From a virus, in the IMG/VR virus record IMGVR_UViG_3300049596_001419, positions 1 to 42,583 of that record: a stretch of DNA of 42,583 nucleotides; one strand, 5' to 3'. Of this stretch, positions 1,914 through 41,168 are shown piece by piece (the stretch's first letter is position 1; each line of letters opens with the position of its first letter). A program made the translations under genes and the position numbers. Below the pieces are notes generated by a model. That model was not told where the DNA came from, made no database searches, and saw nothing but the letters and a program-made list of their open reading frames with translations.

Positions 1914-2411
1914 ATGAATCTTTTAGATTTTAATAATTGGAGTAGACTTACTGAGAATACTGAAGATTCCACTGATTATTCAAAAAATAATCTAGGTGTA
2001 ATACATTACAGAAACGGAGATCCGATTCCAGAAGTAAAAGATCCACTTGAATGGAGTAACTTAACAACTGGTGCGTACTGTCAGTATGACAATGATCTTA
2101 CTGAAGGTATATTATATAATTGGTATGCGGTTAATGACCCTAGGGGTCTTGCTCCTGCGGGTTGGAAAATTCCTACTATTGATGAACTAGAAAAAATAGA
2201 TTTAACTATTGGTCTTCCTGGCGGGTTCCGCTACTTCAATGGAAATTTCAACTACACTGGCTACTTCGGTTACTGGTGGAGTTCTACAGAGGACTCCCTG
2301 AACTCCACTAATGGCGATGCAGCCAGAAACAACACCAGTAAGGAAGTCGGCTTGTCTGTTAGGTGTATACTTGATTTTGATAGTCTTTCAAACTTATTAT
2401 CAGATTTTTAA
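1914..2411 (+). CDS. FISUMP-domain protein with probable DGR variable region
   Basis: A 165-residue protein. The N-terminus LLDFNNWSRLTE (E14) matches the capsid-targeting-like leader of neighbouring genes. Residues about 64-155 form a FISUMP (Fibrobacter major paralogous) domain, a C-type-lectin-related fold: ILYNWYAV, APAGWKIPT, GYWWSST and VGLSVRC are all diagnostic blocks. Residues 103-146 have a codon composition unlike the rest of the gene: 23 of 44 codons end in C, against 2 of the preceding 44. This is the signature of a diversity-generating-retroelement target. The likely role is a variable ligand- or receptor-binding protein. The capsid-type leader is surprising for such a role. Confidence 0.85.
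   Translation: MNLLDFNNWSRLTENTEDSTDYSKNNLGVIHYRNGDPIPEVKDPLEWSNLTTGAYCQYDNDLTEGILYNWYAVNDPRGLAPAGWKIPTIDELEKIDLTIGLPGGFRYFNGNFNYTGYFGYWWSSTEDSLNSTNGDAARNNTSKEVGLSVRCILDFDSLSNLLSDF
2220..2372 (+). other. Putative DGR variable region
   Basis: About 150 bases with roughly 49% G+C in an AT-rich genome, rich in codons of the form NNC (TTC, CGC, TAC, AAC, TCC, GGC, GCC, ACC). This is expected if AAC codons of a template repeat were diversified at adenines. It sits at the C-terminal end of a lectin-like FISUMP domain, the usual place for a variable region, and ends at the conserved SVRC block. No template repeat or reverse transcriptase was found in the window. Confidence 0.6.
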
Positions 2412-15559: not shown

Positions 15560-16477
15560 ATGAGTAACGTATATCTTCTTAATTTAGCATATCCTGAAAA
15601 ATCGAAAGTTTCCTTTGAAAAAACTAAATTTCCAGACGGACAGCAATCCATTCGGATAACTTCTGATATTTCATCAGCTGTTGCAGTTAAAATCTATTCT
15701 AGATTTAATAACTTTAAAGATCTTGAATTAATACTATGTGCGACTTCTGCTTTAAAGAATTTAGGATTAACTGATATCTTTCTCTATATTCCATATTTCT
15801 TAGGTGGACGTAGTGATCGTAAATTTGAAGACGGCTCAATTAATTATATTAAAGATATTATTGCCCCAATTATTAATGCACAACATTATAAGGGAGTTAT
15901 TGTCTTAGATCCTCATTCTGACGTTATTGAGGCATGTATTGATAACTTAGATAAAATAGACAATACTTCACTAGTTAAGGCTGCTCTTGGTGAAATAGTA
16001 GACTCTTTGTCTAAATTTCAATTTGATATATCATCTACTTCTCAAATTTGCATGGTTTCTCCAGATGCTGGCGCACTTAAGAAAATATATTCAGTTGCTA
16101 AGGACTGTGGAGTATCAAATGTTATAACTGCATCAAAGGTCAGAGATCTCTCTACTGGTAAAATATTACATACTGAGGTTCCATTAGTGAATATCAAGTC
16201 TAGTCCTACCGTTTTTGTAATCGTTGATGATATTTGTGATGGAGGTAGAACTTTTATTGAAGTGGCAAAAGCAATTCGTACACGCCGACCTATGCCAGAA
16301 TATCAAGATAAAATATTCTTAATCGTTAGTCATGGAATATTTTCAAATGGGCTATATGACTTATCCAAATGGGTCGATGGAATATATTCGACTAATAGTC
16401 GCGCTGATATTAAAGCTGACGAGTTTTCAGAATACACAGTTCCTTCTACTTTTTTAACTCAATTTAACATATATTAA
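15560..16477 (+). CDS. Ribose-phosphate pyrophosphokinase-like enzyme
   Basis: 305 residues of the PRPP synthetase family, which pyrophosphorylates ribose 5-phosphate with ATP. Visible blocks are IPYFLGGRSDRKF (residues 77-89), DPHS (117-120, equivalent to the catalytic His loop), VSPDAGALKKI, and the PRPP-binding VDDICDGGRTF (222-232). Such phage enzymes either make PRPP for NAMPT or, in described phage NAD-reconstitution systems, pyrophosphorylate ADP-ribose. The sequence alone does not say which. Tightly packed with the YqeY-like and deoxyribosyltransferase-like genes. Confidence 0.88.
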   Translation: MSNVYLLNLAYPEKSKVSFEKTKFPDGQQSIRITSDISSAVAVKIYSRFNNFKDLELILCATSALKNLGLTDIFLYIPYFLGGRSDRKFEDGSINYIKDIIAPIINAQHYKGVIVLDPHSDVIEACIDNLDKIDNTSLVKAALGEIVDSLSKFQFDISSTSQICMVSPDAGALKKIYSVAKDCGVSNVITASKVRDLSTGKILHTEVPLVNIKSSPTVFVIVDDICDGGRTFIEVAKAIRTRRPMPEYQDKIFLIVSHGIFSNGLYDLSKWVDGIYSTNSRADIKADEFSEYTVPSTFLTQFNIY

Positions 16478-18164: not shown

Positions 18165-18413
18165 ATGGAAAGTCCAGGATCTTACATCGGCGCAATAATC
18201 GGTATGATTATTGTTGGTGTTTTAGGAACACTTATGGTAATTGATATTCGCAAAGACATGACAGTAATTGATACTCGAGTTGAAACTGTGGATGGAAAAA
18301 CATATGATTGTACTGAAGCAAACTCAAGTGATAATGGTATGACTTATATCAGAAAGCCTTATTACATAACAATGCCTTCAAGAAACATTAAACTAATTAA
18401 AAGAATAAAATGA
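18165..18413 (+). CDS. Small membrane-anchored protein
   Basis: 82 residues with an N-terminal transmembrane segment (about residues 7-27, YIGAIIGMIIVGVLGTLMVI) and a short soluble C-terminal domain. Overlaps the macrodomain gene start by 4 bases (ATGA), so the two are coupled. No function recognised. Confidence 0.68.
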   Translation: MESPGSYIGAIIGMIIVGVLGTLMVIDIRKDMTVIDTRVETVDGKTYDCTEANSSDNGMTYIRKPYYITMPSRNIKLIKRIK

Positions 18414-18883
18414 ATTATCAAGAAGTAGACGGAGACTTAATTACACTTGCTACGGCTGGTACATTTGATGTTATTGCTCATGGGTGTAATTGTCATTCAA
18501 CCATGGGTGCAGGGATTGCTCCACAGATGGCAAAGGCTTTTGGATGTGATCGTTTTATAATGGAACGTATAGGATCCGATGTTAACAAATTAGGTAACAT
18601 TGATTACCAAACATTAAATTATAATGAAAAGGAACTTACTGTTGTAAATGCCTATACTCAATTTAACTATGGAAGGAATCATGCTGATGGTGATGCTAAA
18701 CCTTTAAGCTATGAAGCACTTACACTGTGTATGAAAAAGATAAACATGCTATTTGCAGGAAAACATATAGGTCTACCTAAAATCGGTGCTGGTCTTGCTG
18801 GTGGCGATTGGGAAAAGATTAAAGCAATCATTCAAAGAGAACTTAGAGATTGTCAAGTAACTATTGTAAACTATAAGAAATAA
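18410..18883 (+). CDS. Macrodomain protein (ADP-ribose binding or hydrolysing)
   Basis: 157 residues. Macrodomain fold: IAHGCNCHSTMGAGIAPQMA (residues 22-41) is the ADP-ribose-binding loop, and GLPKIGAGLAGGDWE near residue 122 is the second glycine-rich loop. Family members bind ADP-ribose or remove it from proteins, nucleic acids or ADP-ribose-1''-phosphate. With the PRPP synthetase-like, NAMPT-like and SLOG-like genes it points to NAD/ADP-ribose handling. The exact substrate cannot be told. Confidence 0.88.
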   Translation: MNYQEVDGDLITLATAGTFDVIAHGCNCHSTMGAGIAPQMAKAFGCDRFIMERIGSDVNKLGNIDYQTLNYNEKELTVVNAYTQFNYGRNHADGDAKPLSYEALTLCMKKINMLFAGKHIGLPKIGAGLAGGDWEKIKAIIQRELRDCQVTIVNYKK

Positions 18884-21778: not shown

Positions 21779-23503
21779 ATGTTTAAACCAAATCCTTTAG
21801 GCTTAACCGATGGTTACAAAGTCGGACATAAGTCAATGTTAGCACCAGGCACAGATTTCTTATATGGAACGTGGATTCCTAGAAGTTTAAAGTATGCTGC
21901 TCCGGGAATCGAAAAAATACTTTCATCAGGTCAACAACTTGCATGGATGTGGCTTCATGATCAATTTGAAGATAACTTCTTTAATCAATCAATTGAAATT
22001 GCTCAGAAATTTGGTAGAGATATGTCAAAATATTTAGGATTAACTTATGATTCTACCCATTTTGAAGACCTTCACAAGTTAGGTTACTTACCAATAAAAG
22101 TTAAAGCTCTTCCTGAAGGATGTGAGACTTTACCTAATATTCCACATCAAACATTTGTTAATACTGTCCCCGGATATGCCTGGTTAACTCTATACTTGGA
22201 AACTCCAGTTTCATATGCTTCTTGGAAAACTCCAACTAATGCAACTTTAGCATTACAGTATCGTAGGAATGCAACTGATTGGGTAATGAAAACAGATTCA
22301 GATAATGCATGGTTTATTGATTATTCATGTCACGATTTTGCTTCTCGAGGATTAGATCCATTCTCAGTAATTTCTTCTGGCCTGGCTCACTCATTCTCTT
22401 TTATTGGATCAGATACCCTTATTGTAATTGACGCTGCTCGTTATTTCTATGGAGTTGGTGAAGATGAAGTATGTATCGCATCAGTTAATGCATCCGAACA
22501 TAGCGTAACGTGCACAGGGATTTTCTACTTCTTAGATAAATTAAAATCTGGTGAACTAGATCATGAAATCGATACTTATTACTCTTATGATATTTCAGCG
22601 ACTGCTTCAACTCAAGAGAATCCAGATTTTATGGCAATTGCTGAATGGTTAAATTTAAAGAGATGGTTAGAGATATTTCCAGTTGGAATCCTATCAGTCG
22701 TATCTGATACCTTTGACCTATTCCGAGTTATTTCTGAAATCTTACCTCGTTTAAAAGATCAAATTATGGCACGTGATGGCAAATTAGTTATCCGTCCTGA
22801 TTCTGGTGATCCGGTTGATATTACTTGCGGAATTAATACGCAAGATAATATTTCAATTCGAATACAAGGTTTAGGCGAATATTATTCAAGAACTAATAAA
22901 AGTGGCCAAACTATATCAGACTGGACTAAAACAGCTGTTACTGAATGTAAAGGAGTAATTGAATTACTTTGGGATATTTTTGGAGGTACCATTAGTAAAG
23001 AAGGATTTAGAGTTTTAGACTCGCATATTGGTGCAATTTATGGAGACTCAATTAATTTAGAGAGACAAGTCCAAATTTATAAAAGGCTTGCATCAAAAAG
23101 ATTTGCAGCAACAAATATTGTTTTAGGAGTCGGTTCATTTACATACCAATTTAATACTCGAGATACAAATGGTTATGCTGCAAAAGGTGCTCAATTTGAA
23201 GCAAATGGCGTATCGTTTGATATCTTCAAAGATCCTGTAACTGATGATGGTACTAAGAAATCTTTAAAAGGATACTGTCAAGTTATTAATACTCGACCAG
23301 ATGCAAAATCTGATGAATTATTATATGATGGATTAGATCAAATAGAAGTTCGAATTAGTTGTACTAAAGAAGAGGAAGATTGCGGATTATTACAAACTAT
23401 TTATGAAAATGGTAAATTCTATAATCAAGTAACTCTAGATGAAATTAGAAATAGAGTTCGTACCTTATCTACTGTACGCCAATTAGAAACTGCACACCAA
23501 TGA
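21779..23503 (+). CDS. nadV: Nicotinamide phosphoribosyltransferase-like enzyme (NAMPT/NadV type)
   Basis: 574 residues, slightly longer than human NAMPT. The family joins nicotinamide to PRPP to make NMN; some phage relatives use ADP-ribose pyrophosphate to make NAD+ directly. Recognisable blocks are LTDGYKVGH at the N-terminus, SEHSVT with the conserved His, SVVSDTFDLFR, VIRPDSGDPVDI, and the C-terminal NTRDTNGYAAKG...IFKDPVTDDGTKKSLKG. All core features are present. With the PRPP synthetase-like gene at 15560 it forms an NAD salvage or reconstitution pair. It is first in its operon, ending 4 bases into the HAD gene. Confidence 0.9.
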   Translation: MFKPNPLGLTDGYKVGHKSMLAPGTDFLYGTWIPRSLKYAAPGIEKILSSGQQLAWMWLHDQFEDNFFNQSIEIAQKFGRDMSKYLGLTYDSTHFEDLHKLGYLPIKVKALPEGCETLPNIPHQTFVNTVPGYAWLTLYLETPVSYASWKTPTNATLALQYRRNATDWVMKTDSDNAWFIDYSCHDFASRGLDPFSVISSGLAHSFSFIGSDTLIVIDAARYFYGVGEDEVCIASVNASEHSVTCTGIFYFLDKLKSGELDHEIDTYYSYDISATASTQENPDFMAIAEWLNLKRWLEIFPVGILSVVSDTFDLFRVISEILPRLKDQIMARDGKLVIRPDSGDPVDITCGINTQDNISIRIQGLGEYYSRTNKSGQTISDWTKTAVTECKGVIELLWDIFGGTISKEGFRVLDSHIGAIYGDSINLERQVQIYKRLASKRFAATNIVLGVGSFTYQFNTRDTNGYAAKGAQFEANGVSFDIFKDPVTDDGTKKSLKGYCQVINTRPDAKSDELLYDGLDQIEVRISCTKEEEDCGLLQTIYENGKFYNQVTLDEIRNRVRTLSTVRQLETAHQ

Positions 23504-40556: not shown

Positions 40557-41168
40557 ATGAAATCGCTTATACATATAGTTTTACTATTTATTACAACTCT
40601 TGCCTTTTCTCAATGGAGTAGAAGCTTTAGATTTAGTGATGATGTATATTATGAAAATCATATTTATAAAACGGTTGAGATAGCCTTTGAAAATAGTTAT
40701 GATAACACAATTGAGTGGAAAGTATGGATGTTGTCAGATATTTTAATAGAACATGAACTAGATAATTTACTTGACTATCGAACTCAACGTGGACAAGTCG
40801 GACTAGGTAATATAATTAGTCCAGTATTGGATAGCATATATTTTAATGTCGCGGCTGCACATAAAGTATGTCCACTAGATTGGAGGTTACCTAGGATAGG
40901 AGAATGGGATACGTTAATGATATCTACGAGTCGATCTCAAAAGGAGTTTATGTTTCCAAATCTTCTTGGATATCGATCATATTCAATAGAAAATGTTGGA
41001 GATGCAGTATACAAAAGAAATAAATATCTAATCGGTGGATATTGGTGGGCAGAACCGAATGAATTAAATACTAATTCAATTCAATTAGATACTAATTACA
41101 ATTATAATAAAGGTAGTGGCGACGCTTGGGATAGAGCGACCGTCCGGTGCATTAGAGAAAAATATTAA
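40557..41168 (+). CDS. Secreted FISUMP-domain protein
   Basis: 203 residues with a signal peptide (about residues 1-18, HIVLLFITTLAFS), so it is exported. The FISUMP pattern is visible: KVWMLSDILIE, AAHKVCPLDWRLPRIGEWDTL, GGYWWAEPNE and TVRCIREK at the end. Codon use is like its neighbours, so no sign of the hypervariable segment seen in the 1914 gene. It is the second FISUMP protein in the window. It may bind a surface or extracellular ligand. Confidence 0.8.
   Translation: MKSLIHIVLLFITTLAFSQWSRSFRFSDDVYYENHIYKTVEIAFENSYDNTIEWKVWMLSDILIEHELDNLLDYRTQRGQVGLGNIISPVLDSIYFNVAAAHKVCPLDWRLPRIGEWDTLMISTSRSQKEFMFPNLLGYRSYSIENVGDAVYKRNKYLIGGYWWAEPNELNTNSIQLDTNYNYNKGSGDAWDRATVRCIREKY

Follow-up and report, generated by a model that had tools for sequence, protein, structure and literature searches.

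Orphan DGR variable regions in phages and their possible diversification by reverse transcriptases of Bacteroidota hosts

The Fib_succ_major (FISUMP) domain has already been reported as a target of diversity-generating retroelements (DGRs) (PMC4159848). In the DGR of the Bordetella phage BPP-1, a hairpin downstream of the target is required for efficient homing, and targets engineered into a plasmid or prophage have been shown to undergo homing (PMC3240598). Systems without a reverse transcriptase (RT) are also on record: in crAss-like (Epsilonunovirus) phages the loss of the RT has been read as a loss of retrohoming (PMC11054128), while for nanoarchaeal DGR fragments without an RT, action from a remote site has been proposed inside one genome, not between phage and host (PMC4372165). 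DGRs are usually catalogued via the RT with a template repeat (TR) and variable region (VR) nearby; hence, orphan phage VRs would be missed. The literature that we searched, with incomplete coverage, does not describe the action of a host DGR on an orphan VR of a phage. Here, we describe such a VR in a 42.6-kb viral record, hereinafter the window (i.e., the whole stretch of DNA that was analyzed), together with its relatives in other phages and the bacterial templates that they match.

The FISUMP gene of a T4-like virus

The window is a fragment of a T4-like virus, coding for a gp20 portal (E=2e-59) and a gp4-type head-closure protein; the nearest portals among annotated phages are those of huge uncultured phages, with no more than 39% identity. 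The gene of interest and its N-terminal tag are:

1914..2411, + strand: FISUMP (Fib_succ_major) gene, coding for the DGR target protein of 165 aa (PF09603, E=4.9e-23)
1914..1955, + strand: N-terminal extension MNLLDFNNWSRLTE, resembling the T4 capsid-targeting propeptide with its [LI]xE processing site and not present in the homologue from L237
1620, 1914, 6842(-), 11351(-), 12217(-), 13015, 25521(-), 27524, 33226(-) and 35061: window genes bearing such a tag

The product of gene 1914 scores 82.8 bits against Pfam PF09603 (cut-off 33.9), which bears out the family assignment made in the first-pass annotation. The gene is flanked by the gene-1620 homologue on one side and the T4 gp4-like head-closure gene on the other. 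Since only 7–98 bp separate the genes that flank it in about 28 relatives, and since none of the 21 portal relatives searched has a FISUMP domain above the cut-off, we take it that this one gene was inserted among the head genes of the window virus. An exact flank search found no second record of the gene, and the closest full-length homologue of its product, from L237, is 60% identical. A second, divergent FISUMP-like gene is found at 40557-41168 on the + strand (Pfam E=1.4e-4, below the cut-off); its start resembles a signal peptide and it is without a VR-type patch. Elsewhere in the window, the ORFs 15560-16477, 18410-18883 and 21779-23503 resemble PRPP synthetase, a macro domain and nicotinamide phosphoribosyltransferase in translations read by eye and might constitute an NAD-salvage set.

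The homologue from L237 starts MKDYSKENL, and the window protein is longer at the N-terminus by about 20 residues, MNLLDFNNWSRLTENTEDST. The T4 capsid-targeting propeptide, which this extension resembles, is processed by gp21 (PMC9026906). A gp21-type protease is encoded by relatives of the window virus, and together with the tag this faintly suggests that the FISUMP protein might be packaged in the head. Short aromatic-rich tags ending in [LI]xE, like the propeptide of T4 internal proteins, are seen at the start of many window proteins. A strict version of the motif, defined post hoc after the sequences had been seen, is present in 11 of the 67 window ORFs (one of which, 23500, looks like chance), as compared to 2.9 ± 1.6 with a maximum of 9 in 2000 shuffles.

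Variable regions and their templates

The 3′ part of gene 1914 contains the following features:

2211..2366, + strand: VR, a TR-derived patch of 156 bp with 50% G+C, from its alignment to the TR of L142
2292..2297, + strand: junction left by an in-frame deletion of 24 bp as compared with the TR, with 8 codons lost (NTNNAWNR in the TR), from alignments
2352..2366, + strand: VR 3′ end TTGTCTGTTAGGTGT, nearly conserved across phage VRs and TRs, a candidate IMH-like element

The first-pass annotation proposed a DGR variable region from an excess of C-ending codons and a jump in G+C, both of which were reproduced: 23 of the 44 codons 103-146 (2220-2351; G+C 50.8%) end in C, against 2 of 44 in codons 59-102. 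Among the pyrimidine-ending codons of this stretch 23 of 33 end in C, as compared to 17% window-wide (binomial p=3e-11), and the runner-up 44-codon stretch in any ORF tested in the window has 14 C-ending codons. The patch likewise departs in composition from its surroundings, with 33.7% G+C in the gene upstream, 20% downstream and 32% in the window.

A search with the expected unmutated template, carrying AAC codons, as the pattern recovered TRs in bacterial genomes. The best of these is in L142 (CAMAXI010000024.1), a 28.5-kb contig of a Bacteroidota MAG. The window VR matches it end to end, from GGTCTTCC through GTTAGGTGT; the homology thus shifts slightly the limits of 2220-2372 claimed earlier, while the patch itself stands. 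The two differ at 25 of 61 template adenines, against 8 of 95 other positions (p=1.7e-6). Fourteen of the changed adenines are replaced by T, six by G and five by C, and since seven of the eight differing non-A letters are common to other VRs or TRs, just one is private to the window VR. The differences thus fall mainly at template adenines, with the TR being bacterial and outside the phage record. The homology starts and stops at approximately the same bases as the TR ends in the window, L237, L013, two VRs of L178 and L054, and the bacterium's own VR in L142 is also delimited at the TR ends. The tail TCTGTTAG is conserved in VRs and TRs and might function as an IMH. No downstream hairpin of the BPP-1 type is found in the 80 nt after the window VR or the L142 VR, a structure that this group of DGRs is not known to need. 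On the reverse strand of L142, shortly after the TR, there is a 10-bp hairpin, TCCCTCAGAG-TTTA-CTCTGAGGGA; the VRs are without it.

The L142 cassette combines, within about 4 kb, a secreted collagen-like/FISUMP target gene, a small Avd-like ORF (assigned by position and size only), the TR and an RT, and the remaining genes on the contig, as judged from translated ORFs, are those of a chromosome. Related TRs are present in L121 and L143 (Flavobacterium), and an RVT_1 match is present in 10 of the 13 bacterial genomes in which TR-like or VR-like sequences were matched. The templates closely matching the phage VRs are found in genomes of freshwater bacteria.

Protein and DNA searches of viral contigs yielded 20 more distinct VRs with the same backbone. 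Over the 21 distinct VRs, the entropy per site is 1.32 bits where the TR has A, against 0.45 elsewhere (p=7e-18); at codon positions 1 and 2 it is 1.25 and 1.38 bits, respectively, for TR-A sites versus 0.19 and 0.20 for the others. Two phage records, L022 and L228, are 98.5% identical across 6.5 kb and mismatch-free over about 200 bp downstream of the VR, and yet their VRs differ at 36 of 67 template-A sites as opposed to 6 of 119 others (p=4e-14). The gene body directly upstream is up to 16% divergent; hence, recombination may have contributed. L004-L007 and L191/L223, pairs with 98.8-99.9% identity, have unchanged VRs despite differences elsewhere. In the patch-less homologues L002 and L003, codon usage is that of ordinary phage genes and there is no bias toward A sites. 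In L018, L178 and L012, at least two FISUMP genes lie close together with different VRs on one backbone. The variable-region reading first drawn from codon bias holds given the matching TR with its A-specific differences and is further backed by the 20 additional VRs and the hypervariable near-identical pair. We are accordingly close to certain that 2211-2366 is a DGR variable region, the 3′ end of the FISUMP gene having been overwritten from a mutagenized template.

The VR-bearing phages belong to unrelated lineages: the T4 portal is found only in the window's group, L228 encodes phrog_11589 as its major head protein, and Sak4 and primase genes are present in L237. The 42.6-kb window record contains neither a second copy of the patch nor an RT, as the first-pass annotation had stated, and L081, which has a 100% identical portal and extends about 13 kb further, contains no TR, second copy or RVT_1 match. 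Scanning 2.9 million viral contigs with two TR patterns brought up no TR with this backbone; about 20 VRs were recovered from the same set with a pattern that would match a TR or a VR equally well. With control genomes positive, no RVT_1 match over the cut-off was obtained in the window, in its relatives or in the VR-bearing viral records searched, among them L237 (121.9 kb), L178 (121.5 kb) and L013 (84.5 kb). The TR DNA as a query against the VR-bearing phage records retrieved only VRs; the L142 RT protein, used with exact-peptide seeds that detect close relatives only, matched none of the viral contigs; and BLASTN of the VR and a consensus TR gave no match in annotated phages. Among the candidates judged individually, an RVT_1 match in the L191 record (14.8 bits, below the cut-off, in a 1494-aa frame) is spurious. 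The TR-pattern match L119 is a chance match outside any FISUMP gene, and the matches L120 and L240 have different DGR backbones. One search with a pattern fitting both TR and VR yielded L237, kept as a VR, L238, another FISUMP-type gene, and chance matches. By IMG/VR class every phage record here is a fragment, and the larger part of the window virus may be absent from its record. The suggestion that the cassette is elsewhere or lost is thereby narrowed: matching templates are found in bacterial DGR cassettes and none in the viral contigs searched.

The deletion, which had escaped the first-pass annotation, removes part of the domain core. In the predicted structure of the window protein the confidence drops around the deleted region, and the model has no fold match, which we attribute to the deletion. 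With eight core codons lost and the low model confidence, the window copy may be defective. The full-length homologue from L237, modeled in its place, gives a good model (pLDDT 90), and C-type-lectin-like structures predominate among its best PDB hits, at non-significant E-values (E>0.1); PDB sequence searches gave no match. The lectin-like fold proposed in the first-pass annotation is thus hinted at by the homologue, with the window model itself unmatched.

Accounts of the diversity

Mutagenic cDNA made from a TR, in which template A can become any base, has almost certainly overwritten the 3′ end of the FISUMP gene in the T4-like phage. We propose that the phage, probably without a template or enzyme of its own, retains in its VR the homology and the 3′ end needed for rewriting by a chromosomal DGR of its Bacteroidota host. 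The TR RNA would come from the host during infection, as would the accessory protein and the RT, all acting in trans, and the protein so diversified would serve in binding. Thus conceived, phages may borrow a bacterial hypermutation machine. VRs without templates across unrelated lineages fit a host-kept template better than a phage-kept one, and we consider this chain as a whole the best single account, with about an even chance of being correct. Counted against it are the missing downstream hairpin at both the window and bacterial VRs, the loss of core codons from the window VR, the unchanged VRs of L004-L007 and L191/L223, and the fragmentary phage records, whereby an RT or TR might lie elsewhere in the window virus. 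More tentatively, we posit that orphan VRs in unrelated phages of freshwater Bacteroidota are tuned to host templates, so that host RTs hypermutate phage proteins; the fusion of the diversified domain to a capsid-targeting tag in the window virus would then imply a hypervariable head-packaged protein, possibly delivered into the host.

An ordinary phage-encoded DGR, with its TR and RT in an unsequenced part of the genome and acting on a remote VR, would draw on the fragmentary state of the records, the existence of phage-borne FISUMP DGRs (L120 and L240) and the remote second VRs known in phages (PMC12629997). We nevertheless regard it as unlikely: about 20 VRs against zero such TRs were found in 2.9 million viral contigs, contigs of 84-122 kb hold VRs without a TR or RT, and the L142 RT query went unmatched there, within its reach of close relatives.

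Slightly less improbable is a passive import, wherein already diversified host VR segments entered the phages through homologous recombination or gene capture and were kept fixed, with no DGR acting on phage DNA. The unchanged VRs and the deletion in the window VR are in line with it, recombination with varied host VRs could also yield the L022/L228 pattern, and the gene-body divergence upstream of those VRs fits recombination. However, the patch limits coincide with the TR ends and do not extend into the flanking host gene body; the window patch has a single private non-A change, though its codon bias is far from that of the phage; and the pattern recurs across unrelated phages. That the signal is an artefact of codon usage or selection in a C-rich, aromatic-rich domain without any DGR is scarcely credible. 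Tyr, Phe, Asn and Gly are indeed abundant in this domain by nature, but the patch-less L002 and L003 show neither the codons nor the A-site bias, and the 21 VRs follow the TR backbone at the DNA level, with differences specific to A sites; the L022/L228 pair, the entropy of the VRs and the window VR-TR alignment refute it. If host DGRs do act on phage VRs, hypermutation would be a service common to host and parasite, DGR activity in viruses would be underestimated, and DNA sequence by itself could suffice to pair phages with hosts through their VR backbones.

Comparison with described systems

The Bacteroidota FISUMP DGR (L142, with the TRs of L121 and L143) is like the phage VR in its backbone, ends, A-directed differences and FISUMP domain; however, it is a complete cassette on a bacterial contig, whereas the phage has only the VR. 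Complete FISUMP DGRs with a VR gene, accessory-like gene, TR and RT are also seen in the phage or prophage contigs L120 and L240. As in the window, the FISUMP VR is at the C-terminus of a phage protein; in contrast to it, all these components are together on the phage and the TR backbone is another one. The BPP-1 DGR (mtd/avd/TR/brt) shares the A-directed diversification of a VR in a phage gene, but it is the phage's own cassette and needs an IMH along with the downstream hairpin not found here. Nanoarchaeal DGR fragments are comparable in showing VR-like traces without an RT. The crAss-like phages with a fragmented or lost RT resemble the window phage in having kept a VR without it, and the window phage differs from them in that close templates for its VR are found in bacteria.
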